Of a DNA stretch of 64,000 nucleotides, positions 18,502 to 50,430 are shown piece by piece. The notes beneath the pieces are model-generated. The model had not been told where the DNA came from and made no database searches. It saw nothing but the letters and a program-made list of their open reading frames with translations. The stretch comes from Akkermansiaceae bacterium (lineage in GTDB: Bacteria > Verrucomicrobiota > Verrucomicrobiia > Verrucomicrobiales > Akkermansiaceae). The stretch is from NCBI GenBank assembly GCA_029242935.1, contig JAQWSX010000103.1:54181-118180 (forward strand), given 5' to 3'. Position 1 is the stretch's first letter. Each line of letters begins with the position of its first letter. A program made the position numbers and the translations under genes.

Positions 18502-19483
18502 TTGTTGCACCTCCTCAGTCCTCTCGATATGGAGGCCAACGCCAAGGAAGGCAATTCTATCCCATGGCCTATTTCCTACGAGGAACTCGCGCCTTGGGAT
18601 TCTTACGTTGAGGAATTCGCTGGAATCAGTGGCTCCAAGGAAGGACTCGCACAGCTCCCCCGCGGAGATTTTCAGCCGCCGATGAATCTTACTCCTCCCG
18701 AACTAGACCTTAAGGCCGCCATCGAAGAAAAGGGGAAAGGTCGCACCCTAATTCCCGGACGAGTCGCGCACCTGACGGCGCCGACCGAAGAGCAAATCGC
18801 TCTCGGCCGCGCTAGCTGTCAGTACAGAAACCTTTGTCGCCGCGGTTGTCCATTTGGAGCCTACTTCAGCAGCCAGGCCGCGACCTTGAAGGCTGCTGCT
18901 AATACTGGTAAGATGACCCTTCCGTCCCCATTCAATCGTTCACTCCGCAATATACGATGACAAAGCCGAGAAGGCGATTGGAGTTAGACTTATCGACGAG
19001 ATCACCTTTGAAACTATCGAATACTACGCCAAGGTCATTTTCCTAAACGCTTCCACTGTAGCCTCGACCGCCATTCTCATGAATTCAAAGTCGCAGCGCT
19101 TCCCTAATGGCATGGACGAAAGCGGCACGCTCGGCGGCTACCTTATGGATCACCACCTTGGAGCCGGAGCTAGTGCCAGCCTTGAAACTCATCAGGACAA
19201 AATTCATTACGGTCGTCGTCCCAACGGGTTTTACATCCCTTGCTTCCGAACCTTTAATCGGCAGCCCAGCATTGGCCTTGGTATCCACGAGATGGGAACG
19301 GCCCGGATGGGCAGCTCAGTTCTCAATTCAACACAATCAGGTTTGGGGGCTAAGAACGTCTTCTGCACTGATGGCTCTGCTATGGTCTCCGCGGGTTGCA
19401 AAAACCCTTCGCTCACCTATATGGCTCTTACTGCTCGCGCTGCTGATTACGCCGTCAAGGAATTGAAAAATGGCAACCTCTAG
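18502..19483 (+). pseudogene. decayed GMC-family oxidoreductase (5' truncated, frameshifted, internal deletion)
   Basis: ORF 18502-18960 carries DMEANAKEGNSIPWPISYEELAPW...SCQYRNLCRRGCPFGAYFSSQAATLKAAANTGKMTL. The reading continues in another frame from about 18920 (RPHSIVHSAIYDDKAEKAIGVRLIDEITFETIEYYAKVIFLNASTVASTAILMNSKSQRFPNGM...) to MGTARMGSS...CTDGSAMVSAGCKNPSLTYMALTARAADYA. Confidence 0.88.
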
Positions 19484-19638: not shown

Positions 19639-21828
19639 ATGAGTCGGTTCCCCCAGATCTTTTGCACGCTATTCGCAATCACTTCGCACAATCTCATTGC
19701 CGCCAAGAAACCGAACATTGTCTTTTTCTTCACTGATGATCAGACAATCTCGACCCTAGGTTGCTATGGAAACCCTGTCGTAAAGACACCACACATCGAC
19801 GGCCTCGCCGCGCGGGGCACCCGTTTTCAACAAGCCTTTGTGAGCCACCCAATTTGTTGGGCCAGCCGGACCTCCATCCTCACCGGGATGACTGCCCGCA
19901 GTTATCGTACTCCCGGAAACGGCGACCGTGTCGGAGACGCAGCGCTTAAGGTTCTCTATTCCGACCTGCTGCGGGAAAACAACTACCGAACCGGCTACTT
20001 CGGAAAATGGCATGTCAAGGCCTCTCGTAAGTTTAATCGAAAGGCACACTTTGACGAAATCGAGGTCATTGGGCGAAACCCATTCTTCAAAACGCTTCCC
20101 GATGGCACGCTTCGCCACGAAACCGACCTCATCGTGGACAAGGGAATCGACTTCTTACAACGGCAACCTAAGGACAAACCTTTTGCCCTCAACATGTGGT
20201 TTAACGCATGTCACGCTGAAGATGGCGACCGCCGTCCCGGCATTGGGCATTTCGCGTGGCCTCAGTCTGCAAACGGGCTTTACAATGACACTTACATTGG
20301 GCCTCCTCGACTGGCTGACCCCGCCATTTTTGATAACCTTCCAGACTTTCTTCAAACCAGCATCACTCGTGAGCGGTTCTTCTGGCGCTGGAACACTCCC
20401 GAGAAATACCAAACTAACATGCGGGCCTACTACCGCATGGTCACTGGAATCGACAATGCTATCGGCCGCTTCCTCAAAGCGCTTGATGATGCCGGTCTCG
20501 CAGACAATACCATTATCGTGTATTCAGCAGATAACGGATATCACATGGCGAATCGAGGGCTCTCTGGAAAGTGGTCTCACTTTGAGGAATCTATCCAAGT
20601 TCCTATGATCATTGCTGACCCACGTGTTTCAAAAGACAAGCAGGGAAAAGTCTCCACTCTTCCCGCTCTTAATATCGACCTCCCTGCCACCTTTGTTGAC
20701 TGGGCCGGCCTAGTATCACCCACGCGTTTTGACGGACGGAGTCTCAAACCAATCGTCGATGGCGAGGAACCCAAAAACTGGCGTTCTGATACCTTCCATG
20801 AACACTTCGCCGTTCGTCACAGAATCCCCGCTTACGAGGGAATTCGTAATTCCACTCACAAATATGTTCGCTACATCGATCATGACACCGAATTCCTACA
20901 CGACCTTAAAAAAGACCCAGATGAATTGGTCAATCGGGCAAGTGATCCCAAATACGCCAAGATCCTTGAGAAACTTCGGAAACGAACCGACCAGCGAATC
21001 AAGGAAATGGGCGGACCTCTCGACCCACCCACTCAAAAATTCACTGCTTCGACTCCCCCCTATCCTGAAGCATCAGCCGCGGTGACTGTTAAGCCTGAAT
21101 TAGATGGCTTTGTGCGCCTTTTTAACGGTAAAAACTTAAACGGATGGACCGGCGACAAAAAATACTGGTCAGTCAAAGATGGCGCTCTCACAGGTGTCAC
21201 CGACGGATCCTTAAGAAAGAACCGCTTCATCACCTGGAACGCCTCAACCATTCGCAACTTCGAATTACAGGTAAAAGTAAAATTCAGCGATCAAGCCAAT
21301 AGCGGCATCCAGTATCGAAGTAAGATGATCCCCGAAATTGGTCTGGATGTCGCTGGTGGCTACCAATGCGATATCATGGCCCGCGAGAATATGAATGGCA
21401 TGGCCTACGAAGAGCGGGGCCGCCGAATTCTTTCTTACACCGGCCAAAAAGTTGTTATTGATCAAAAGGGTCAATCTTGGGTCATCGGCGAAATGCCCGT
21501 GAAGAAATTCTCCCCTGATGTTTGGCATGACTACCGCGTTCGTGTTCGCGGAAACCATCACCAGCACTGGGTCAATGAAAGCATGACCGCAGACTTCATT
21601 GACCTCGATGAAGATGGGCGTGTGCTCGGTGGGATCTTCGGCTTTCAGGTTCATGTCGGGCCCGCAATGCAGATTCAATTCAAGGATATCCGCATCAAGC
21701 ACCTCCCTGACAACCTGCCTCTCCGCACTTTCGCAGACACAAAGATTCCACCTTCCGCTTATAGAGTGCGTCCTCAAGGAACTCCTAAAAAAGGATGGAG
21801 AGCTCCCCTTTATCGAAATCAAAAATAA
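19639..21828 (+). CDS. secreted sulfatase fused to C-terminal DUF1080 (3-keto-disaccharide hydrolase-like) domain
   Basis: Signal peptide; KPNIVFFFTDDQTISTLGCYG; FGly-type motif CWASR; GYFGKWH; C-terminal FVRLFNGKNLNGWTGDKKYWSVKDGALTG...NSGIQYRSK...WHDYRVRVRG. Confidence 0.92.
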   Translation: MSRFPQIFCTLFAITSHNLIAAKKPNIVFFFTDDQTISTLGCYGNPVVKTPHIDGLAARGTRFQQAFVSHPICWASRTSILTGMTARSYRTPGNGDRVGDAALKVLYSDLLRENNYRTGYFGKWHVKASRKFNRKAHFDEIEVIGRNPFFKTLPDGTLRHETDLIVDKGIDFLQRQPKDKPFALNMWFNACHAEDGDRRPGIGHFAWPQSANGLYNDTYIGPPRLADPAIFDNLPDFLQTSITRERFFWRWNTPEKYQTNMRAYYRMVTGIDNAIGRFLKALDDAGLADNTIIVYSADNGYHMANRGLSGKWSHFEESIQVPMIIADPRVSKDKQGKVSTLPALNIDLPATFVDWAGLVSPTRFDGRSLKPIVDGEEPKNWRSDTFHEHFAVRHRIPAYEGIRNSTHKYVRYIDHDTEFLHDLKKDPDELVNRASDPKYAKILEKLRKRTDQRIKEMGGPLDPPTQKFTASTPPYPEASAAVTVKPELDGFVRLFNGKNLNGWTGDKKYWSVKDGALTGVTDGSLRKNRFITWNASTIRNFELQVKVKFSDQANSGIQYRSKMIPEIGLDVAGGYQCDIMARENMNGMAYEERGRRILSYTGQKVVIDQKGQSWVIGEMPVKKFSPDVWHDYRVRVRGNHHQHWVNESMTADFIDLDEDGRVLGGIFGFQVHVGPAMQIQFKDIRIKHLPDNLPLRTFADTKIPPSAYRVRPQGTPKKGWRAPLYRNQK

Positions 21829-21947: not shown

Positions 21948-23243
21948 ATGAAACTTCGTCTATTTCTTATCGCGATTCCTTTGATTATAGCGCAAATCGG
22001 CGCCCAAGAAACGAAAGGTCCTTATGAGGTTTTTCCCCCTGCCACCCCTCCTTATTTTAGAATCCGATACGAGGCTGGAGTCAAACCTCAGCAACTTAAA
22101 TTCGCTGTCAAATACACGATTTGGATCCCACCCAATGTCAAGACGCTGCGCGGCATCGTTGTGCACCAACACGGATGCGGGATTGGCTCCTGTAAATCAG
22201 GCCTCACCGGAGCCTATGATCTTCATTGGCAGGCTCTTGCGAGAAAGCATGATTGCGCCCTTATGGCTCCTTCCTATGAACAGCCAAAAGACACGGATTG
22301 CCAATTATGGTGCGATCCACGAAATGGTTCGGGATCAAGATTCCAGCAAGCTCTAGTCGACCTCGGAAAAAAATCCGATCACCTTGAGCTCTCGAGGATT
22401 CCGTGGGCTCTTTGGGGACACAGTGGCGGCGGACACTGGGCGGGAGGAATGCTGATGCTTCACCCAGAAAAAGTCGCAGCAGTCTGGCTTCGCTCTGGCG
22501 TCCCCTACCTAAAAGAAAGTTTAGATCGACCCTCTATCAAACCTCACAAAATACCCGAAGCAGCACTCACTGTTCCTATTATGTGCAACCTTGGAACAAA
22601 AGAGGGTGTCACCGTCAAGACAGGGCGTTTTTCTCGAGTCTGGCCAGCCAACGAGGTCTTTTTCGACACCCTTAGTAAGAAGAATGGCCAAATTGCTTAT
22701 GCCGTTGATCCGCTCACTTCCCACGAATGCGGAAACCAACGATATCTTGCCATCCCTTGGTTCGATTCCTGTCTTGACCTTCGACTCCCAAGAGCTCCCA
22801 ACACGCAACTGGTCAAAATCACCTCTAAGAATTCGGGAAGCTTTCGACATCAGATCGACGGTCGGAATATTTGGCTTCCCAGTCCGAGAATTAAAAAGAT
22901 GTGGCTCGCCTACATCAAGAATACAGCCATCCCGGATCAAACTCCACCGCCTCTACCCACTGATTTAAGAGTCAATGGTACCACCTTAACCTGGACCGCT
23001 ACGGCTGACCTCGAAAGCGGCCTCGCCCACTTCATCATTTTTCGGGATGACAAACCCATCGCCACCATTCCTGATGAGCCACTAACCCGTTTTGGGAGGC
23101 CACTCTTTCAGGGGCTTCAATACAGTGACACTCCGCAGCAACCGCTCTCTAAAATGATTTTTATAGACCCGCAGCCCACACCCGGAACGCAGCATAAATA
23201 TCATGTTATCGCTGTGAATACAGTTGGGCTGAAATCACAATAA
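21948..23243 (+). CDS. secreted alpha/beta hydrolase with C-terminal fibronectin-III-like region
   Basis: Signal peptide [20 protein letters not shown] from ATG 21948; nucleophile elbow WGHSGGG; C-terminal FNIII-like segment ([18 protein letters not shown]...[14 protein letters not shown]). Confidence 0.75.
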
Positions 23244-23381: not shown

Positions 23382-24911
23382 ATGCGAAATTCTTCCTCAA
23401 AGCTGCTCTACTGGGCAATCACCTGCGCTCTAGCCGGATTTATTTTCGGCTTCGATCTTATCGTAATCTCGGGAGCAGAACAAAAGATCCAATCCCTCTG
23501 GGGGCTCAGCGGACTTGAACATGGGTTTGCCATGAGTGCTGCACTTTGGGGTACAGTTGTGGGCTCAATTTTTGGAGGCGGACCTACCGACAAGTTTGGT
23601 CGTAAGAAAGTCCTCCTATGGATCGGCATCCTCTATTTTGTCTCGGCGATCGGATCTGCTTTCGCCCCCAATGTTAGCATCTTTGCAATCTCACGTCTCA
23701 TAGGAGGTATCGGAATTGGCGTTTCAACCGTCGCGGCGCCCCTCTTCATTTCCGAAATATCACCAGCGGAACGTCGTGGGCGCCTTACCGGCATGTTTCA
23801 ATTCAACATTGTTTTCGGGCTTCTCATCGCCACGGTTTCAAATGCGATCATCCTTCAGATGATGGGGCCAGACAGTGACACAGCTTGGCGTTGGATGCTT
23901 GGAATCGAAGCGATCCCGGCTCTGGTCTATTCCTTCATGTCTTTTACCCTTCCTGAGAGCCCCCGCTGGCTCATCAACAATAGTCAGCGAGAGGAAGGAA
24001 AAAGAATTTTAGGTCAAATTAATCCGACCTTTTCAGAAGCAAAACTAGAAGAAACAGTAGGAGAGATCGAGCAGGCTGGCGACCTTGAATCAGGTATGTC
24101 TCGCGTTCTCTGGAAGCCTCTAAAACTTGCACTTGTTCTCGCCTTTCTCATCGCTTTCTTTAATCAACTGTCCGGAATCAATGCCATCCTCGGCTATGCC
24201 CCGCGCATTTTGGGTATGACCGGTTTCGATCCAGGCGAATCTCTTTTTAATGCCAGCCTCATCACTTTGGTGAATCTGATCTTCACCCTAGTTGGCCTTC
24301 GACTTATCGACAAACTTGGCCGACGCTCTCTTCTCTACATTGGCTCTTTTGGATATATCGTTTCACTCGCCGTATGCGCGTGGGCATTTCATAGTTACCG
24401 TGCTCCCTTTGCTGATGCCGCTGATGCCATTTCTCTCAATAATTCAGCGCCGGCTATCGCCTCCAATATTTCCCGACTTCCCGAAAAATACACCTCTCAA
24501 GTTACCTCCGAAAACCTTTCCGAATCCTGGGTTAAAGAAGTCGCTAGCGACTCCCTCAAATCCGCCAAAGAAAAAGCTGGAATTGGCAGTAACCTCGTTC
24601 TGATTTGCATCCTTGCCTTCATTGCCGCACACGCTGTCGGGCAAGGCGCAGTCATTTGGGTCTTCATCTCAGAGATCTTTCCAACCGTGGCTCGGGGCTT
24701 TGGGCAGTCACTTGGTTGCGCCACTCATTGGGTCTTCGCTGCCATTTTGACCTTTATTTTCCCTCTTGCAATGGAAGCCTTTACGGCGACCCAAATCTTC
24801 GGCTTCTTTGCTTCCATGATGATTCTCCAACTCGTTTGGATCCGCTTAATGGTTCCCGAAACTAAAGGGGTTTCGCTTGAAGATATGCAGGCTAATCTCA
24901 GCAAAAAATAA
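23382..24911 (+). CDS. MFS sugar porter family transporter
   Basis: GFDLIVISGAEQ; GGGPTDKFGRKK; PESPRWLI; FFNQLSGINAILGYAPRI; DKLGRRSLL; PETKGVSLEDMQ. Confidence 0.93.
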   Translation: MRNSSSKLLYWAITCALAGFIFGFDLIVISGAEQKIQSLWGLSGLEHGFAMSAALWGTVVGSIFGGGPTDKFGRKKVLLWIGILYFVSAIGSAFAPNVSIFAISRLIGGIGIGVSTVAAPLFISEISPAERRGRLTGMFQFNIVFGLLIATVSNAIILQMMGPDSDTAWRWMLGIEAIPALVYSFMSFTLPESPRWLINNSQREEGKRILGQINPTFSEAKLEETVGEIEQAGDLESGMSRVLWKPLKLALVLAFLIAFFNQLSGINAILGYAPRILGMTGFDPGESLFNASLITLVNLIFTLVGLRLIDKLGRRSLLYIGSFGYIVSLAVCAWAFHSYRAPFADAADAISLNNSAPAIASNISRLPEKYTSQVTSENLSESWVKEVASDSLKSAKEKAGIGSNLVLICILAFIAAHAVGQGAVIWVFISEIFPTVARGFGQSLGCATHWVFAAILTFIFPLAMEAFTATQIFGFFASMMILQLVWIRLMVPETKGVSLEDMQANLSKK

Positions 24912-25004: not shown

Positions 25005-27944
25005 ATGAAACTCCTTCTCATTCTTCTCCTATCCGTTTCAGTTTCCTTTCGAGAAGCGCACTCTAAAGATAGGCCTAATGTCATTGTCGTCTTCATCGAT
25101 GACATGGGATACTCAGACTTTTCATGTTTCGGAGGTAAGGTCAAAACCCAACACGTCGACCGCCTCGCTTCCGAGGGCATTAAGTTCACCAATTTTTACG
25201 TGAATTCCCCCATTTGTTCTCCATCCCGTGTTGCCCTGACTACCGGACAATACCCACACCGTTGGCGAATCACTTCCTACCTTAATAATCGGCGCGATAA
25301 CAAAAGACGCGGGATGGCCCAATGGCTCGATCCGGAAGCCCCCACCCTTGCTCGACAGCTCAAGAAAGCGGGTTACGCCACTGGCCATTTCGGTAAATGG
25401 CATATGGGAGGGCAACGCGATGTCGTTGAAGCTCCCGAAATTTCAAGTTACGGTTTTGATAAAAGTTTAACTAACTTCGAAGGGATCGGCCCAAAACTTC
25501 TTCCTCTTACCCTCAAGCCCAACCCCGACGGAGGAGAGCCCATCCAAGGTCGTATTTGGGCCGATGCCGAGCGACTCGGCAAAGGCTTTAAGTGGATGCA
25601 GCGATTCGAAATCACCACCGGCTTCATCAACGAGGCCCTCAATTTTATCGATCAATCACAGAAAAAGGAAAAACCTTTCTTTATCAACCTCTGGCCAGAC
25701 GACGTCCATGGTCCCTGGTGGCCGCCACTCGAAAAGTGGGGTGGCAGTCGTCGGGCCCTTTATCATGGTGTTCTCGATTCCATGGACGAACAGCTCGCGC
25801 GCCTTTTTGATCGGGTTCGTAACGATCCGAAGCTACGCGACAACACCATCATCACCGTATGCTCAGACAATGGACACGAGCCAGGCGCTGGAACATCAAG
25901 ACCGTTCCGCGGGGCCAAAACTTGGATGTATGAGGGAGGAATTCGATCACCTCTCATTGTTTGGGCGCCCGGACTCATGCCCGCTGAAGGAAAAGGGACT
26001 ACCAATGAGTCCTCTGTCTTTTCGGCAATCGACCTCAACCGATCACTCTATTCACTCACCGGGACCAAGCCCTCCCGAAAACTTGATGGCGAAGATCTCG
26101 CCCAAGCTCTCATCGGAAAATCATACGAATCCCGTAAAGCCCCGCTCTTTTGGCGGCGCCCTCCGGACCGCCCCGGTTTCGGCCACGGATTCGATGAAGA
26201 CAATCCAGACCTCGCCGTTCGCCATGGTGATTGGAAATACCTTATCAATATCGATGGATCTGATCCCCAACTCTACAATCTCCCCCAGGATCCGGGTGAG
26301 TCACAAAACCTCGCCAAAGAGAATCCCAAAATCGTTAATGAACTCCACAAGGCACTCCTGAAGTGGAATTCTGGCATGCCCGTTGATGGGTCCGACCCAA
26401 CCTATAGCAAGACAGGCGCCCTTCCAAAAACCCACTTCGTGAATCCAATCGGAGTCAGTCAAGATCCGTGGGTTGTGCGTGATGAAAAAAACAAACGCTA
26501 CTTGTGGTGCTCATCGGAAGGCGATCGTGCAATCACTATTCACACCTCACAAAACCTCACCTCTTTCGGCCAACGGCACCTCGTTTGGAGTTCACCCGAC
26601 TCAGGCCCATATTCAAGACAAGTTTGGGCTCCAGAGCTTCACCTTCTTGACGGAAAATGGCATATCTATTTCGCTGCGTCCGACGGGAAGAACGAGAATC
26701 ACCGCGCATACGTCCTCCAGTCTAGAACCGATGACCCCTTGGGGGAATATCAACTCCACGGTCCTTTCCAGACCGGTGAGACCGCTAATCAAAATCTTTG
26801 GGCGATTGATATGACTCCTCTTAAGCTGAAGGATAAACTCTACGCGATCTGGTCCGGTTGGGACGGCCCCGACACTGATCACCAGTATCTCTACATTGCA
26901 GAAATGGAGAGCCCACTCAAACTCTCGACCAAACGTGTCCGAATCTGTGATAACTTAGACTATAATTGGGAGCTTACCGAACCAAAGCCACGAGGGCGCG
27001 GTCTAAACGAAGGACCTCAAGTCCTTCAAAATCGTGATCGAACCTTCGTCACATACTCTTGCGGTGCTTCCTGGCTCCCAAGCTATAAAGTCGGAATCCT
27101 TGAACTCACGGGAGATGATCCCCTTAATCCTTTGGGGTGGAAAAAGAACAAGGGTTCGGTATTTCAATCTACTAAAGAGACCTTTGGAGTTGGTCATTCC
27201 TGCTTCGTGAGATCACCTAACGGTTCCGAGTGGTGGCAGGTCTTCCACGCCAAGGAGAGCCGGGCTCCCGGTTGGCAGCGGAGTATCCACATTCAACCCT
27301 TCAAATGGTCGCGCGATGGACGTCCACTTTTTGGCCGACCCTTTCCCCGAAACGAACCATTTCCTCGACCAGGCGGAGAGCATACCAGCATGTTGACTTT
27401 ACCCTACTCCTCGGATCTGGCCACCGATCACTCCTACTTCGGGCATGCCCAATTTTACCAACCAATTTCGCAAGGCCTCAAACTTGGCACCCCCCCAAAA
27501 AAACCTGTCAACACCTTCCGTTCTGGTGAAAAGATTATCCTAAACAAAAAGACACCCGATGATTTCACCGCATCTGTCACGCTCGACTTTCATGGACTCA
27601 ACGAGGGCCGGGGTTCTGGAATTCTATTTCGAATCACCGCACCCTCCGTAGGGCTTGATGCCGCCCGGGGATATTTTCTCGGCATCAAACCAAGCCAAAA
27701 CACGGTCCTGATCGGCAAGATGAACGGGAGCAGTTGGCAAGAATTGAAACGTAAATCTATTCCCATTGACACCTCAAAGAAACATCGACTTTCGGTCACA
27801 GGGGTCGGATCGGAATTCACCGTTTCTATCAACGGCAGAGCGCTATTCACCCATCGCGACCCGACTTACAAAACTGGAACAATTGGGCTCCGCGTGACGG
27901 ATATCCCTACCACCTTTTCTGAGCTAAAAATTACTCATCCCTAG
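25005..27944 (+). CDS. secreted multimodular enzyme: sulfatase, GH43-like beta-propeller and C-terminal LamG/DUF1080-like domain
   Basis: Signal peptide; sulfatase RPNVIVVFIDDMGYSDFSCFGG, SPICSPSRVALTTGQYPHR, GHFGKWHMGG. GH43-like DPWVVRD, VWAPELHLLDGKWHIYFAA, WAIDMTPLKLKDKLYAIWSGW, NEGPQVL, GVGHSCFVRSPNG. C-terminal GSGILFRITAPSVGLDAARGYFLGI...SVSINGRALFTH-type segment. Confidence 0.9.
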   Translation: MKLLLILLLSVSVSFREAHSKDRPNVIVVFIDDMGYSDFSCFGGKVKTQHVDRLASEGIKFTNFYVNSPICSPSRVALTTGQYPHRWRITSYLNNRRDNKRRGMAQWLDPEAPTLARQLKKAGYATGHFGKWHMGGQRDVVEAPEISSYGFDKSLTNFEGIGPKLLPLTLKPNPDGGEPIQGRIWADAERLGKGFKWMQRFEITTGFINEALNFIDQSQKKEKPFFINLWPDDVHGPWWPPLEKWGGSRRALYHGVLDSMDEQLARLFDRVRNDPKLRDNTIITVCSDNGHEPGAGTSRPFRGAKTWMYEGGIRSPLIVWAPGLMPAEGKGTTNESSVFSAIDLNRSLYSLTGTKPSRKLDGEDLAQALIGKSYESRKAPLFWRRPPDRPGFGHGFDEDNPDLAVRHGDWKYLINIDGSDPQLYNLPQDPGESQNLAKENPKIVNELHKALLKWNSGMPVDGSDPTYSKTGALPKTHFVNPIGVSQDPWVVRDEKNKRYLWCSSEGDRAITIHTSQNLTSFGQRHLVWSSPDSGPYSRQVWAPELHLLDGKWHIYFAASDGKNENHRAYVLQSRTDDPLGEYQLHGPFQTGETANQNLWAIDMTPLKLKDKLYAIWSGWDGPDTDHQYLYIAEMESPLKLSTKRVRICDNLDYNWELTEPKPRGRGLNEGPQVLQNRDRTFVTYSCGASWLPSYKVGILELTGDDPLNPLGWKKNKGSVFQSTKETFGVGHSCFVRSPNGSEWWQVFHAKESRAPGWQRSIHIQPFKWSRDGRPLFGRPFPRNEPFPRPGGEHTSMLTLPYSSDLATDHSYFGHAQFYQPISQGLKLGTPPKKPVNTFRSGEKIILNKKTPDDFTASVTLDFHGLNEGRGSGILFRITAPSVGLDAARGYFLGIKPSQNTVLIGKMNGSSWQELKRKSIPIDTSKKHRLSVTGVGSEFTVSINGRALFTHRDPTYKTGTIGLRVTDIPTTFSELKITHP

Positions 27945-29707
27945 TTAGTCCTAATCGGTGAACGGAACAGAGGAACCAAAGTACAAATGCCGGCAACAAG
28001 AAGCGGAGTTCCCGGCAAATAATCCCCATAGATCGTCAGCCCTGTTCCGATAAGAACAGCAAGAATCCCGGCACTTCCAAAGAAAACTTTTAAGAGGTCA
28101 CTCCCCATCGATGGTTCATTTGCGTCACGTTCTTTCGTTCTAAAACGATCCCACCCACTCCCTGGAGGAGACGTTTGATTTGCAAATCGAGTTAAGGTTT
28201 CCGACTCTTCCGGCTTGGTCAAAAAGGTAACCACCAGCCAAACAAAAGTCGTCAGGACAACTGGCCCGACATAGTTCCAAGGGCCCATCGTAACCGCCCA
28301 GCCAAAAGGGTCAGCGAAGGGCAAGGTCGATTTACTCGTATAGAGATAGCTCGAAACAATCGCTGTCAAGGAGGCCGAAATTTCACTCCACGCATTGACC
28401 CGCCACCACAACCAGCGAAGCAAATACACCAAGCCAGTTCCGGCCCCGACCATCAACAAGACATTAAACATCTGCGCGGCATTCGTAAAAGCAAGAGCTA
28501 CTAGGGATCCCAATGCCAGAACCAAAACACTGCTCACCCGACCAACCAGGATCTGTTCACCTTCACCAGCGTTTTTATTACAGAATCTCTTCCAAAAATC
28601 CTTGGTAAGGTAGGACGACGCCAGATTCACCTGAGTCGAAAGAGTAGAAATGTAGGCAGCGATTAACGAAGCTAGCACAACTCCTTTCAATCCCGCCGGG
28701 AGTTGGGCGATCATGGCTGGATAAGCGACATCGTGCCCAAGCTTTCCATCGTCTAAATTTGGAAAGGCTTGATCGATCGATTCCAAGTCTGGGAAAATCA
28801 CTAAAGAAGCAAGAGCAACCAAAATCCATGGCCATGGCCTTAAGGCATAGTGGGCAACATTGAAAAATAGATTGGCCTTTGTAGCATGCTTTTCGTCCTT
28901 CGCCGCTAAAGTCCGCTGTGCAATATATCCACCGCCCCCCGGTTCGGCCCCCGGATAATAACTAGTCCACCACATTAGGGCAATTGGTATGATGAAAAAC
29001 TCGACCCAGTTCGAATCCTTGGACGGAATGATACTCATCTTGGCTTGCACTGCTTCATGAGCAAAAAGACCATCGAGGCCACCGATCGAATCCATGTTTA
29101 AAATGTAAATCGTCGCAGCTACTGACCCTACCATCGCTAAGGCGAATTGGAAAAAATCTACCAGCAAAACAGAGCGCAATCCACCCGCGACGCTGTAAAG
29201 CATGGTCACTCCGGCACCTAGCAGAATGGTCTGCCAGGCATCCAACCCCATCAAAACTCCCAAAATCTTAATCGCCGCCAAGGAGACCACCGCAATGATA
29301 AATACGTTAAAAAACAACCCGAGATACAAGGCCCGGTAGGCTCGCAAAATCTGACCTCCGAGCCCGGAGTATCTTAACTCGTAAAATTCTACATCGGTCA
29401 TCACTCCGGACCTACGCCAACGTCTGGCAAAGACATAGGTGGTCAGCATTCCAGAAAAAACAAGAGACCACCAAAGCCAGTTCTTTGAAACTCCCTCAGT
29501 TCTCACCCAGTCAGTAATCAGGGTTGGAGTATCGGCCGCGAAGGTCGTGGCAACCATCGACACTCCAAGCAACCACCATGGCATGGAACGGCCAGCCAGA
29601 AAGAAACTCTCGGTATTACCGGTATTTTTTTTGGCGGCCCACCAGCCAATTCCCAAACTAATTGCCAGCGACACTACGATCACGACCCAGTCTAATCCTT
29701 CAATCAT
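27941..29707 (-). CDS. sodium:solute symporter (SSS family)
   Basis: From ATG at 29707: MIEGLDWVVIVVSLAISLGIGWWAAKKNTGNTESFFLAGRSMPWWLLGVSMVATTFAADTPTLITDWVR. The upstream part of the listed ORF lacks membrane character. Confidence 0.9.
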   Translation of the reverse strand: MIEGLDWVVIVVSLAISLGIGWWAAKKNTGNTESFFLAGRSMPWWLLGVSMVATTFAADTPTLITDWVRTEGVSKNWLWWSLVFSGMLTTYVFARRWRRSGVMTDVEFYELRYSGLGGQILRAYRALYLGLFFNVFIIAVVSLAAIKILGVLMGLDAWQTILLGAGVTMLYSVAGGLRSVLLVDFFQFALAMVGSVAATIYILNMDSIGGLDGLFAHEAVQAKMSIIPSKDSNWVEFFIIPIALMWWTSYYPGAEPGGGGYIAQRTLAAKDEKHATKANLFFNVAHYALRPWPWILVALASLVIFPDLESIDQAFPNLDDGKLGHDVAYPAMIAQLPAGLKGVVLASLIAAYISTLSTQVNLASSYLTKDFWKRFCNKNAGEGEQILVGRVSSVLVLALGSLVALAFTNAAQMFNVLLMVGAGTGLVYLLRWLWWRVNAWSEISASLTAIVSSYLYTSKSTLPFADPFGWAVTMGPWNYVGPVVLTTFVWLVVTFLTKPEESETLTRFANQTSPPGSGWDRFRTKERDANEPSMGSDLLKVFFGSAGILAVLIGTGLTIYGDYLPGTPLLVAGICTLVPLFRSPIRTN

Positions 29708-29923
29708 AGGTCTCCTTATCAGCTTATTTGCCAAAGGTCGAAATCTACTTTGCAACGAACACTGGACCGCTAGGGCATTTAGAAGGGGGAGGAAATTCAA
29801 TAAAACCATCAATGATTGCCGGGGCAAGAAAACGGTAAAAGTAAGCTTCTCAAAGGGAATTGGAGATCGCAGTATAGTAATCCATTAATCGAAAATCCTC
29901 ATACACGAACGCCGCTACTTATT

Positions 29924-31084
29924 ATGAACAAACAGACCCTCACTCTCTGCGCATTTCTCCCTTTTGCTGCCTCCGCCGCTAAATTCTCCGTGACCTCAAA
30001 GCCCTTTGGCAAAGTCGACGGAAAACCTGTTGCGCTTTATACTCTCACAAATGAATCAGGAGCCAAAGTTTCCATCACGAACTACGGCGGCACCGTGACC
30101 TCTATCATTGTTCCTGACAAAGATGGTAAAATGGGCGACGTCGTCCTCGGTTTCGACACCGTTGCTGAATATGTTGAGAAGAGTCCATACTTCGGTTGCA
30201 TCACCGGACGATACGCGAACCGAATCGCGAAGGGAAAATTCACTTTGGATGGCAAAGAATACTCAGTCGCCACCAATAACGATCCTAACCATCTCCACGG
30301 TGGGCTCAAGGGTTTCGATAAACAGATCTGGAAAGCAAGGGTCGGAAATATGGGCGACAATCCGAACTTAACCCTGACATATACCAGTCCCGATGGCGAA
30401 GAAGGATACCCCGGGACCTTGAATAATTCAGTGACTTACACCTGGACCCAAGACAATGCCCTCCGCATCCGTTACAAGTCCACCACCGACAAACCGACTA
30501 TTCTCAATCTAACCAATCACAGTTACTTTAACCTTGCCGGAGAAGGCAGCGAAACCAATCTCCAGCATCGCATCAAAATCAACGCCGAACATTATAACCC
30601 TATCGATGCAACTTCAATCCCAACTGGTATCGCCCCAGTCGAAGGGACGCCGTTTGACTTCAGAAAGTCCACCCAAATTGGCAAACGAATCGATGAAGAA
30701 AATGAGCAACTCAAAAACGGAATAGGATACGATCACAACTTTATCCTCAAAGAAGCAGACGATGGAAAAATGGTAACAGCAGCAGTCGTTACCGAGCCGA
30801 CCAGCGGTCGAATTCTTACCGTAAGAACCACCGAACCGGGGATCCAGTTCTACACTGGAAATTTCCTAGATGATCTAAAAGGAAAAGGCGGTAAAAACTA
30901 CGCACACCGATCAGCTTTCTGCCTCGAGTCACAGACCTTCCCTGATTCACCGAATCAAAAGGAATTTCCCTCACCGGTTCTCCGGCCCGGCGAAACCTAC
31001 AGCCAGATCACGATCTACCATTTGGGTCTCAAGAAAAACCTCAAAAAAAAGAAGGCCCAAACTCAGACTGAACGCAAAAAATAG
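29924..31084 (+). CDS. secreted aldose 1-epimerase / galactose mutarotase-like protein
   Basis: Signal peptide from ATG 29924 (MNKQTLTLCAFLPFAASA); NYGGTVTSIIVPDKDGKMGDVVLGFDTVAEY, GRYANRIAKGKF, HLHGGLKGFDK, NLTNHSYFNLAG. Confidence 0.94.
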   Translation: MNKQTLTLCAFLPFAASAAKFSVTSKPFGKVDGKPVALYTLTNESGAKVSITNYGGTVTSIIVPDKDGKMGDVVLGFDTVAEYVEKSPYFGCITGRYANRIAKGKFTLDGKEYSVATNNDPNHLHGGLKGFDKQIWKARVGNMGDNPNLTLTYTSPDGEEGYPGTLNNSVTYTWTQDNALRIRYKSTTDKPTILNLTNHSYFNLAGEGSETNLQHRIKINAEHYNPIDATSIPTGIAPVEGTPFDFRKSTQIGKRIDEENEQLKNGIGYDHNFILKEADDGKMVTAAVVTEPTSGRILTVRTTEPGIQFYTGNFLDDLKGKGGKNYAHRSAFCLESQTFPDSPNQKEFPSPVLRPGETYSQITIYHLGLKKNLKKKKAQTQTERKK

Positions 31085-46574: not shown

Positions 46575-46710
46575 TTAAGACATACGAAATAAAACCTCAC
46601 ATTTTATCATTCCGATTCCATCATCCATCTTTCTCGATTCCCAAGATAGCATGAAATGCGGATCTGAAAGAGTAACACTCCAAGTTTGGTATCAAAACTA
46701 TCGTCCTAAG

Positions 46711-49083
46711 ATGAGATTCCCGACCTACCAAATCATACTCTTCCACTTCCTCTACCTGCCTGTCTCGGCTGCGATTAATTTCGAGGAGCAGGTCAGGCCC
46801 ATCCTCGCAAAGCACTGTTTCAAGTGCCACGGCGAAAAGAAGCAAAAAGGCGACTTTCGGCTCGATACCCTTTCCCACAATCTTCTCCAGAATCGCGCTG
46901 CTGCCGAAACTTGGCATGATGTCCGGGACGTTCTCAATCTTTCCGAAATGCCGCCAAAGAAAGAGGACCCGCTGCCCCCCGCAAAACTTAAAATACTGAC
47001 TTCCTGGATTACGCAGGAGATCGACGCCCTCGTTGCAACTCGAAAAGGCACTGACGGTCGCGTCGTTCTGCGACGCCTCAACAAAACCGATTACCAGAAC
47101 ACGATGCGCGACCTACTCGGTATCGAGATGGACTACGCCAAAAATCTCCCACCAGAAACTCCTTCGGAAGATGGCTTTCGTAATAACGGAGAGACACTCC
47201 AGATGTCGGACCTTCAGCTGGAATATTATCTAGAAGCCGCCCGCAAGGGACTAGCCAAAGCCATCGTCATCGGTTCACGACCCGATTTTTTTGAGAAGGA
47301 ATTCACAAAAACCGTGAATGACAAAAATCGGGGCAGCAACATTCTCGACAAGGATCAGCAATTTATCGCCAAACTTATGAATTACCCCGAAGATGGTGAA
47401 GTCCTGATCCGGGCGAAGGTAAGAGCACACTTTGCTGAAGGCCGCGGTTACCCTCAACTCCGCGCCGCTATAGGATACCGCGCCGATGTCCAAGCCCCCC
47501 GCGGATTTATTGCCCCGGTTGATATCACCTCCGAAGATTGGCACACCGTCGAGTTTCGAACACGCATTGAGAATTTCCCGCTCCCCAGCAAAACTCAAAG
47601 CAAGTTCCCTGGTCTCCTCCTATGGCTTGACAATGCCTATGCCGAAGGTCGCGATAAACCACTCAAAGCCCGGGGTAAGGGAAAGAAGCAAAGGGCTCTT
47701 AAAGGCCCTCTGACCTATCCACAAATTGAAGTTTCCTCAATGGAGTTCATTGGTCCCATCTTCGATGACTGGCCACCAGCCCACCATCAAGCAATACTTT
47801 TTCCATCTAACCAGCGCTCGAACGAAGAAGTCTATTCAAAAGCAGTGCTCCGTAACTTCATGAGCAAGGCCTTTCGCCGCCCTATTCGCGACGAGGAAAT
47901 CGTTCTCTACTCTCGGTTTTTTATGTCAGTCCGCCCAAAGATGAAAACCTTTGAGGAAGCAATTCGCGAGACTCTTGCGATGGTCCTAATTTCGCCTGAC
48001 TTCCTCTATCTCATAGAACCTTCCGGCTCTTCAAGACGCTCCATTAGCGACTGGGAGCTAGCCTCCCGCCTTTCCTATTTCCTCTGGAGCAGCATGCCCG
48101 ACAGACGCCTCTTTAGTCTTGCCAAAAAAGAAACTTTGGGGGATCCGAAAGTCCTACAAAAAGAAATTTCGCGAATGATCGCAGACAAACGTTCGTGGCA
48201 ATTCGTTGAGCAATTCGCGGACCAATGGCTCGACGTCGGAGCCCTCCAGCGTGTCGCTATCAATCCCAACTACTATCCAAAGTTTGACTCCGCCCTCAAA
48301 GCTTCGATGCGAGGCGAAACCATTCACTTCTTTGGTGAACTCTTCCAAGAGAACCTAAGCGCTCTCAATATCCTTGATTCCAATTTCACTATGTTGGATG
48401 AAGCACTCGCCAAGCACTACGGCCTCACCGGCCCCAAAGGCAGCCGCTTCGAGCGAGTCTCACTGAAAGCCGATGATCACCGCGGGGGCATTCTCGCCCA
48501 CGGTAGTGTTCTCCTAGGCAATTCCACCGGAGAAGATTCTCATCCTGTCAAACGTGCCGTCTGGATCCGCGATCGCCTCCTCGACGATCCCCCGTCCCCC
48601 CCTCCTCCCGATGTTCCAGGTCTCGATTCCACCGATCCAAATTTTGCCACACTCTCGGTTCGCGATCAACTTGCCGAGCACCGTAAGAAAGTTTCCTGTA
48701 ACGAGTGTCATCGCGGCATTGATCCGTGGGGAATCTCTCTCGAAAACTTTGGTGCCGACGGACTCTGGCGAAAGCAAATCCTCCGCAAAAAGGTGACAGG
48801 AAAAGGCATGATCAAGCTTCCCGTTCTCTCAGAAGCAACCCTGCCCGACGGCAAGGAGATCGACGGAATGAACAGCCTCAAAAAACATCTCCTCGAGCAC
48901 CGCCGCGACCAATTCGCCCGCGCCTTCACCACCAAGCTTCTCACCTATGCCCTTGGGCGTCGTCTTGAATTGGTCGATGAACAATCAGTGGATGAACTCA
49001 CCTCAAAGTTCATCGAATCAGAATACCGCATCAAAGATTTGATTCATCTGGTCGTGGCCAGCAAAATATTCCAAAGTAAATGA
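46711..49083 (+). CDS. PSCyt1/DUF1587/DUF1592/DUF1588/DUF1585 secreted cytochrome-like protein
   Basis: Signal peptide from ATG 46711; CxxCH in HCFKCHGEKKQKGDFRLDT; LRRLNKTDYQNTMRDLLGIE; AFRRPIRDEEI; second CxxCH in SCNECHRGIDPWGISLENF; FTTKLLTYALGRRLE. Confidence 0.92.
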   Translation: MRFPTYQIILFHFLYLPVSAAINFEEQVRPILAKHCFKCHGEKKQKGDFRLDTLSHNLLQNRAAAETWHDVRDVLNLSEMPPKKEDPLPPAKLKILTSWITQEIDALVATRKGTDGRVVLRRLNKTDYQNTMRDLLGIEMDYAKNLPPETPSEDGFRNNGETLQMSDLQLEYYLEAARKGLAKAIVIGSRPDFFEKEFTKTVNDKNRGSNILDKDQQFIAKLMNYPEDGEVLIRAKVRAHFAEGRGYPQLRAAIGYRADVQAPRGFIAPVDITSEDWHTVEFRTRIENFPLPSKTQSKFPGLLLWLDNAYAEGRDKPLKARGKGKKQRALKGPLTYPQIEVSSMEFIGPIFDDWPPAHHQAILFPSNQRSNEEVYSKAVLRNFMSKAFRRPIRDEEIVLYSRFFMSVRPKMKTFEEAIRETLAMVLISPDFLYLIEPSGSSRRSISDWELASRLSYFLWSSMPDRRLFSLAKKETLGDPKVLQKEISRMIADKRSWQFVEQFADQWLDVGALQRVAINPNYYPKFDSALKASMRGETIHFFGELFQENLSALNILDSNFTMLDEALAKHYGLTGPKGSRFERVSLKADDHRGGILAHGSVLLGNSTGEDSHPVKRAVWIRDRLLDDPPSPPPPDVPGLDSTDPNFATLSVRDQLAEHRKKVSCNECHRGIDPWGISLENFGADGLWRKQILRKKVTGKGMIKLPVLSEATLPDGKEIDGMNSLKKHLLEHRRDQFARAFTTKLLTYALGRRLELVDEQSVDELTSKFIESEYRIKDLIHLVVASKIFQSK

Positions 49084-49086
49084 ACC

Positions 49087-50430
49087 ATGAATCGTAAATC
49101 TTGGCATCTTCCCCGCCGCACCTTCTTACACGGCGTTGGAGCTTCTCTCTCCCTTCCCCTCCTCGAGTGCATGGGCGCTGACATCAAAAAATCCCCGCGA
49201 CCGAAACGCTTCTGTGCGATCTACTTTCCATATGGAGTCAGTCTGCCGAGAAAAAATAAGGGAAAAGAAAACCCCGAATCAAAATGGCAATGGTTTCCCA
49301 ATACTGAGGGTCGTGATTTTCAATTTAACGAAAGTCTCAAATGTCTTGAACCGCTCCGAAAACACGTCTCAATTCTCGGCGGACTCTCTCATCCGAACGG
49401 CCGCAAAATCGGCGGACACGACACCGCTGACATCTTTCTTACCGCAGCCGAGCTCAAAGGAGGCCAACTCAAAAATTCCGTTTCCCTTGATCAACTGCTT
49501 GCCGCTAAACTTGGCGACAGCACTCGCTTCCGTTCGATCAGCCTCTCGGTCGATGGAGGGGTTGGCGAAGCTACTCGCTCTAGCACTCTTTCGTTCAGCC
49601 GCAACGGCACACCTGTCCCAGCTCTTCACCATCCCCGTCTCGTTTATAACCGACTCTTTGGCGAAGAAGACAAAAGCATCGACTCCAAACGTCAGGAAAT
49701 CGAAAACTCCGACCATATGCTCGATCTTGTTCTCGAGCATTCGAAATCCGTTCGCCGCAAACTCGGAAAACAGGATCAGGAGAAGTTTGACGAGTATCTC
49801 CAATCCGTTCGCCAAATCGAACAACGGGTCGAGCAATCAGAAAAATGGCTAAACATCCCGAAACCACAGGTCGATATCTCCGGATTACATCTCGAGGCCG
49901 ATGACAAGACTCCCGGCGAACTGATAAAGACGATGTTCGACCTAATGTTCCTTGCCATCCAGACCGACTCGACTCGTTTCCTTACTTATCAAATGGGCAA
50001 CATGAACGGCGCCACCTCAATCGCCACCAAGTTTCCATCTCTCCTCGGCTTCGGCAAAAACCAGCACAGCCTCGCCCACGGATGGAACAAACCTGGCGGA
50101 GCCAAAGCTCTCGGAAAATGGGATCGGTTTCGCGCCGAACAACTGACTTACTTCCTTCAACGCCTCCAGGACACCCGCGAAAATGAGGGCACTCTCCTCG
50201 ACCACACCATGGTTCTTTACGGAAGCAGCAACAGCACCACTCACAATAACACAAATTACCCTCTAGTCGTAGCTGGTGGTAACAAACTTGGGCTAAAACA
50301 CGGAGCCTATCATCGCTTTGGATCAGACGTCCCCCTCTCAAATCTCTTTGTCACGATGGCCAATCGTCTTGGCATGCCCGGGACTAAATTTCTCGACAGT
50401 ACAGGTGAAATGCTCGAGATCATTAGTTAA
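49087..50430 (+). CDS. DUF1552 domain-containing protein, probable Tat-exported
   Basis: LPRRTFLHGVGASLSLPLLE twin-arginine-like signal; KRFCAIYFPYGV; HDTADIFLTA; MVLYGSSNSTTHNNTNYPLVVAGG; 3 nt after the DUF1592-type gene. Confidence 0.92.
   Translation: MNRKSWHLPRRTFLHGVGASLSLPLLECMGADIKKSPRPKRFCAIYFPYGVSLPRKNKGKENPESKWQWFPNTEGRDFQFNESLKCLEPLRKHVSILGGLSHPNGRKIGGHDTADIFLTAAELKGGQLKNSVSLDQLLAAKLGDSTRFRSISLSVDGGVGEATRSSTLSFSRNGTPVPALHHPRLVYNRLFGEEDKSIDSKRQEIENSDHMLDLVLEHSKSVRRKLGKQDQEKFDEYLQSVRQIEQRVEQSEKWLNIPKPQVDISGLHLEADDKTPGELIKTMFDLMFLAIQTDSTRFLTYQMGNMNGATSIATKFPSLLGFGKNQHSLAHGWNKPGGAKALGKWDRFRAEQLTYFLQRLQDTRENEGTLLDHTMVLYGSSNSTTHNNTNYPLVVAGGNKLGLKHGAYHRFGSDVPLSNLFVTMANRLGMPGTKFLDSTGEMLEIIS

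Follow-up and report, generated by a model that had tools for sequence, protein, structure and literature searches.

We found that a single polypeptide encoded in a 64,000-nucleotide window of an Akkermansiaceae genome (the whole stretch of DNA that we analysed) joins a complete sulfatase, a complete family 43 glycoside hydrolase (GH43) and a CBM66-like tail. The reading that we favour, to which we assign a probability of about 0.5, is an exo-acting bifunctional enzyme, secreted or periplasmic, for a sulfated galactose-containing algal glycan, for example a sulfated galactan or arabinogalactan. Sulfatases are abundant in marine Verrucomicrobiota and Planctomycetes, and their substrates are mostly unknown. 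Here, one sulfatase subfamily is repeatedly fused to GH43 and linked to genes of galactose catabolism, and the substrate is therefore directly testable. The fusion would supply another tested example of one chain that both desulfates and cleaves, and it is a candidate enzyme for the sulfated arabinogalactans of green algae.

Architecture of the fusion protein

An initial annotation of this DNA had described one 979-aa open reading frame (ORF), and its coordinates, strand and length proved exact. The ORF begins with ATG at 25005, its stop codon ends at 27944, and it has no internal stops (Table 1). Pfam analysis of the ORF showed Sulfatase at aa 24–353 (E = 3.7e-43), Glyco_hydro_43 (PF04616) at aa 480–774 (E = 1.2e-44, profile positions 3–288 of 288) and a weak match to PF06439 at aa 839–976 (E = 2e-6). 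The N terminus has a signal-like hydrophobic run ending AHS-KD, and orthologs keep a hydrophobic start of varied sequence. These data agree with the signal peptide and the three-module secreted polypeptide that had been proposed, since both enzymes are complete on one chain with a signal-like start. Intact copies of this fusion in at least 17 Verrucomicrobiota genomes that were assembled independently, and its recurrence in Planctomycetaceae MAGs, ruled out an assembly or frameshift artefact.

Table 1. Features of the fusion gene and its neighbours in the window.
Feature	Position	Strand	Basis or remark
979-aa fusion: signal peptide, S1 sulfatase, GH43, CBM66-like tail	25005..27944	+	Pfam; end-to-end conservation in at least 17 genomes
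Sec signal-peptide-like N terminus, aa 1–20, MKLLLILLLSVSVSFREAHS	25005..25064	+	Read by eye from sequence; ortholog alignment
S1 (FGly) sulfatase domain, aa 24–455	25074..26369	+	Pfam; alignment; PDB matches
CSPSR formylglycine motif, aa 71–75	25215..25229	+	Sequence; invariant in alignment of relatives
Short linker, ~22 aa (456–477), without long Ser/Thr-rich spacer	26370..26435	+	Alignment
GH43 five-bladed propeller, Pfam aa 480–774	26442..27326	+	Pfam; fold match
D487, predicted catalytic base (AtAbf43C D168)	26463..26465	+	Alignment; mutagenesis of AtAbf43C in PMC12493170
D602, predicted pKa modulator (AtAbf43C D283)	26808..26810	+	Alignment; PMC12493170
E669, predicted catalytic acid (AtAbf43C E344)	27009..27011	+	Alignment; PMC12493170
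CBM66-like beta-sandwich tail, aa 796–979	27390..27941	+	Tail profile and tail model; PF06439 E = 2e-6
Second sulfatase fusion: S1 sulfatase (CWASR) and full PF06439 3-keto-disaccharide hydrolase (E = 2e-34)	19639..21828	+	Pfam
Alpha/beta-hydrolase, esterase-like, weak PHB-depolymerase match	21948..23243	+	Co-directional with fusion
MFS sugar porter (TIGR00879, above cut-off)	23382..24911	+	94 bp upstream of fusion, co-directional
Sodium:solute symporter (SSF)	27941..29827	-	Tail to tail with fusion; kept in near relatives
Aldose 1-epimerase (GalM-like)	29816..31084	+	Near fusion, kept in near relatives; true start probably downstream of listed TTG

The sulfatase half

The fusion's sulfatase is an FGly-dependent S1 enzyme, with a PF00884 domain, the C-x-[PA]-x-R motif and the full residue set. 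We observed that D32, D33, C71, R75, K131, H133, H235, D288, N289 and K305 did not vary across 14 aligned relatives, both fused and standalone. The DD, R, K, H, H, DN and K residues presumably have the metal- and sulfate-binding roles of S1 sulfatases. The canonical CSPSR reported earlier was confirmed, with the other expected S1 residues in place, and five FGE-sulfatase matches were found in the fusion's own genome (best E = 2.0e-71).

A sulfatase profile searched against the PDB matched 7stt best, and the kappa-carrageenan sulfatase S1_16 (9fo1), the iota-carrageenan sulfatase 6b0j and GALNS were also among the best matches. The fusion's sulfatase shares the full S1 active-site set with 7stt and with these three enzymes of galactose-type sulfates, but all four are only distant relatives of it (~165–230 bits over ~440 aa). 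In the full-length AlphaFold model the sulfatase half was poor (mean pLDDT 64) because the input alignment was shallow.

Searching the fusion protein against its own genome returned 93 match segments, nearly all in the sulfatase half, and the genome is therefore sulfatase-rich. This genome (~3.2 Mb; assembly 85.5% complete) is very rich in sulfatases, yet the only GH43 found in it is that of the fusion.

The GH43 half and the CBM66-like tail

The initial annotation had placed three catalytic carboxylates in DPWVVRD, WAIDMTPL and NEGPQVL. These are D487, D602 and E669, and a phmmer alignment to AtAbf43C (9nxj) put them on D168, D283 and E344, a triad that is conserved in relatives. The three AtAbf43C residues are essential, their mutation abolishing activity (PMC12493170). 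Two checks that had been suggested for this region, a GH43 HMM search of aa ~480–800 and the placement of the catalytic residues, returned the whole-profile match at aa 480–774 and, by alignment, the AtAbf43C triad.

The GH43 region of the AlphaFold model was confident (most 10-residue blocks at 75–94), and it matched 5m8b, 5m8e, 3k1u and 9nxj, all of GH43_26 type, with TM scores of 0.84–0.88. The likeness to alpha-L-arabinofuranosidases noted earlier was thus upheld in both sequence and fold. The fusion's GH43 has the propeller fold and triad positions of the GH43_26 exo-alpha-1,5-L-arabinofuranosidases AtAbf43C, SaAraf43A, LbAra43 and WAra43, which are its nearest solved structures. It differs from GH43_26 sequences in its identity to them (30–34%) and in forming a separate clade, with 100/100 support in a tree where many other branches are weakly supported. 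Characterised GH43_26 members share 49–63% identity with AtAbf43C (PMC12493170), and by identity and tree the fusion's GH43 lies outside their cluster.

Several loops close to the active site are also rebuilt relative to GH43_26, with SEGDR for VPEYDR, WSGWD for WAQ.D and HSCF for HNSF. There is an insertion before the catalytic Glu, the loop before R759 is shorter, and loops differ around HSCF and in blade V. Solved GH43_26 members carry CBM42 or no module, whereas here the GH43 stands between a sulfatase and a CBM66-like tail. No single residue of the fusion establishes specificity for a sugar or a sulfate position.

A profile of eight tails matched a single family in the PDB, the CBM66 of Bacillus subtilis levanase SacC (4azz, 4b1l, 4b1m; E = 4e-13). 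The same CBM66 entries ranked first for a separate tail model (pLDDT 81; TM 0.85–0.88, including 4b1m and 4azz). By profile and model, the tail is therefore best described as a CBM66-like binding module. It has the same beta-sandwich as the SacC module but is 17–19% identical to it, and fructan binding is not implied. The C-terminal module that had been annotated as LamG/DUF1080-like is present, and only its label changes, from simply LamG to CBM66-like. A plain LamG domain and an active 3-keto-disaccharide hydrolase were set aside because the PDB matches of the tail profile were to CBM66 only.

Distribution and fusion variants

The near relatives of the source are marine Akkermansiaceae MAGs labelled Roseibacillus. 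Complete-ORF fusions were present in 17/289 sampled genomes of the order, in three Planctomycetaceae MAGs and in one further MAG (L087), and the carriers span several genera. The parts also occur on their own, as GH43-CBM66 in L046–L052 and as sulfatase in L153–L160. One genus (g3, which includes Haloferula) has GH43-CBM66 with its own signal-like start and without the sulfatase. In genome G187 (L049), a matching sulfatase (58% identical) lies ~3 kb from a standalone GH43-CBM66, with regulatory genes between them. The sulfatase subfamily was found in 114/278 genomes of the order, usually as one strong match each. Co-occurrence of unfused GH43 and sulfatase was modest and is confounded by phylogeny (9/13 vs 88/248; Fisher P = 0.02); the four GH43 carriers for which no sulfatase was listed counted as negative here, though some of them may lie outside the second sample.

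Larger relatives have the order sulfatase-sulfatase-GH43-CBM66 (about 1340–1450 aa). The largest is a 2991-aa polyenzyme directly after galK (L066, 2065–11040, on G068:C71; also in L083). Its chain runs from a LacZ-like GH2 through a TraB/GumN-like domain, an unassigned stretch with a weak GH5 match and two sulfatases to GH43 and a CBM66-like domain. The sulfatase subfamily is joined as well to a different, xylosidase-like GH43 (GH43b), as GH43b-S in L142 (7157–9571) and as S-S'-GH43b in L141 (23–4552). We argue from this repeated joining of one sulfatase subfamily to GH43 domains that both activities are directed at a single substrate.

Sulfatase-glycosidase fusions are already known, namely P36 and many in Planctomycetes. 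P36 of Formosa agariphila (S1_25-GH78) acts on ulvan in a proven order: the sulfatase exposes a non-reducing-end rhamnose, which the GH78 alpha-L-rhamnosidase then removes (excerpted text of PMC8511951). It is a biochemically proven case of the sulfatase-glycosidase fusions that the initial annotation had placed in algal-polysaccharide loci. Like the fusion described here, P36 has an FGly sulfatase and an exo-glycosidase in one polypeptide. It differs in having GH78 in place of GH43, another sulfatase, ulvan as substrate and a Bacteroidota host, and the excerpted text does not note for it a CBM66-like module such as the fusion has. Two algal Planctomycetes have 34 and 21 multi-domain sulfatases, and GH43 matches inside sulfatases were noticed there (passages of PMC4807772). 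In such macroalga-associated Planctomycetes, sulfatases are likewise joined to glycosidases, laminin-G or a second sulfatase, but those passages do not describe the S1-GH43-CBM66 lineage or its galactose context. A literature search for sulfatase and GH43 domain phrases together found no paper, PMC4807772 being the closest. The S1-GH43-CBM66 lineage, the separate GH43 clade and the galactose linkage appear to be new.

The varied GH43 fusions across lineages and the P36 precedent make it very likely that the sulfatase and GH43 halves act on the same glycan, as had been proposed. In a rival reading without sequential logic, the GH43 would only debranch a polymer and the sulfatase would work on its backbone, the fusion serving just to keep both at the substrate surface. 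We regard this as possible, though on the unlikely side: the standalone orthologs suggest that neither part needs the other in cis, and targeting is usually the sole role of CBM66-like tails, but the short linker and the recurrent GH43 fusions favour coupled steps, of which P36 is a sequential example.

Further domain combinations were seen among the relatives. The protein at L068 6369–9422 is a sulfatase-GH43 with a xylosidase-like GH43, by similarity to L141. A 1392-aa protein (L149, 6470–10648) has three sulfatase domains in one chain. The fusion's GH43 clade is joined to GH39 in L073 (93–2672), and in L070 (8523–11210) CBM66 and a further GH43 come after it.

Galactose linkage and the candidate substrate

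We observed that a LacI-galK-galM-Na/sugar symporter set lies beside the sulfatase or the fusion in L069, L153, L154 and L155. In L157, LacI-galK-symporter lies beside the sulfatase without galM, and in L066, LacI-galK is directly upstream of the 2991-aa gene. In 10/47 galK-bearing genomes, galK and the sulfatase were no more than 13 kb apart, vs ~0.25 expected by chance (P ~1e-4 even with only four independent lineages assumed). The galactose link is not universal, as a galactokinase match is missing from 33/80 genomes with the sulfatase subfamily, near-complete ones included. The galK linkage was seen in family f2 and not in the window's own genus, and the galK of the window genome is on another contig. 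The galM and SSF genes next to the window's fusion encode proteins that are only distant counterparts of the operonic ones of relatives (~45% and ~24% identity). On balance, a sulfated algal polysaccharide rich in galactose is a more probable substrate than plain arabinan.

The initial annotation had pointed to a possibly arabinose-containing substrate, and this inference is weak. It is countered by the position of the GH43 outside GH43_26, its rebuilt loops, the galactose context in relatives and the lack of arabinose genes. A search of 20 genomes, 18 of them of high quality, gave no AraA_N match, and full-length AraB was found neither in the window genome nor in G135, G167, G230, G236, G264, G276 and G278, which are seven of its eight fusion-carrying congeners. 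The absence of araA was dropped as proof against arabinose and is weak evidence, because Akkermansiaceae with ordinary GH43_26-like genes (e.g. G161) also lack araA.

One full arabinose reading has a sulfated arabinan as substrate. In it, the GH43 would be an exo-alpha-1,5-L-arabinofuranosidase, the sulfatase would desulfate arabinose of the same chain, and L-arabinose would be the nutrient. The nearest solved GH43s are all enzymes of this kind, and several more distant fusion carriers do have a full-length L-ribulokinase-like match. Sulfated arabinose is also known from algae: Chaetomorpha linum has sulfated 6-linked beta-D-Galp together with 5-linked alpha-L-Araf that is likewise sulfated, and in Chaetomorpha the sulfate on this Araf is reported at C-2 or C-3 (PMC7550628). 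Against this stand the AraA_N and AraB results, the separate GH43 clade with its changed loops, and linked genes that in relatives serve galactose; we judge a sulfated arabinan to be unlikely. The arabinose and galactose views would be compatible if the substrate were a sulfated arabinogalactan like the one in Chaetomorpha (PMC7550628).

A GH43 for another terminal sugar, for example a beta-D-xylosidase acting on a sulfated xylogalactan or xylogalactoarabinan, with D-xylose used via XylA, seems highly improbable. Xylose isomerase is present in 20/21 fusion-related genomes, the upstream MFS porter matches the XylE family below cut-off, and Cladophorales arabinans are known to bear beta-D-Xylp stubs (PMC7550628). 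However, the fusion's GH43 is nearest to arabinofuranosidases and not to GH43 xylosidases, and XylA is general in the fusion-related genomes, where we saw no linkage of it to the fusion.

In the favoured exo-acting, galactose-containing reading, the CBM66-like tail would grip the ends of chains, and the FGly sulfatase, matured by the genome-encoded FGE, would take sulfate off a residue located at the non-reducing end or close to it. As an inverting arabinofuranosidase-type exo-glycosidase, the GH43 would then remove the newly exposed terminal residue. This residue may be alpha-L-Araf or its stereochemical look-alike beta-D-Galf; beta-D-galactofuranose stubs occur on other Cladophorales polymers (PMC7550628). 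A freed hexose could be imported by the adjacent porters and then used by GalM/GalK. In this scheme, secretion, the order of the two steps, the linkage cut, the substrate and the product are inferred, while the domains, the full catalytic sets, their conservation, the recurring fusion, the FGE and galK of the genome and the galK linkage of relatives were observed.

A bolder version, which we hold tentatively and consider rather doubtful, makes the fusion's GH43 clade a new subfamily with a new specificity, for instance that of an exo-beta-D-galactofuranosidase, or one for terminal Araf/Gal that has just been desulfated. The fusion would desulfate and then cleave a sulfated arabinogalactan. Its larger relatives, which reach 2991 aa with the LacZ-like GH2 and two sulfatases, would process the same polymer as an assembly line within one protein.

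Genomic neighbourhood

The nearest relatives likewise have the MFS porter upstream of their fusion, two of them with other genes inserted in between. The sulfatase-PF06439 gene at 19639–21828 is syntenic with the fusion in L054, L055 and L056. Elsewhere in the window, a 152-aa ORF without a Pfam match (18502–18960, +) resembles by eye an interior segment of a GMC-type oxidoreductase and may be a gene remnant. A PSCyt/DUF1592-type gene and, after it, a DUF1552 gene occupy 46651–50430 (+); in L056 and L057, a homologous pair separates the MFS porter from the fusion.
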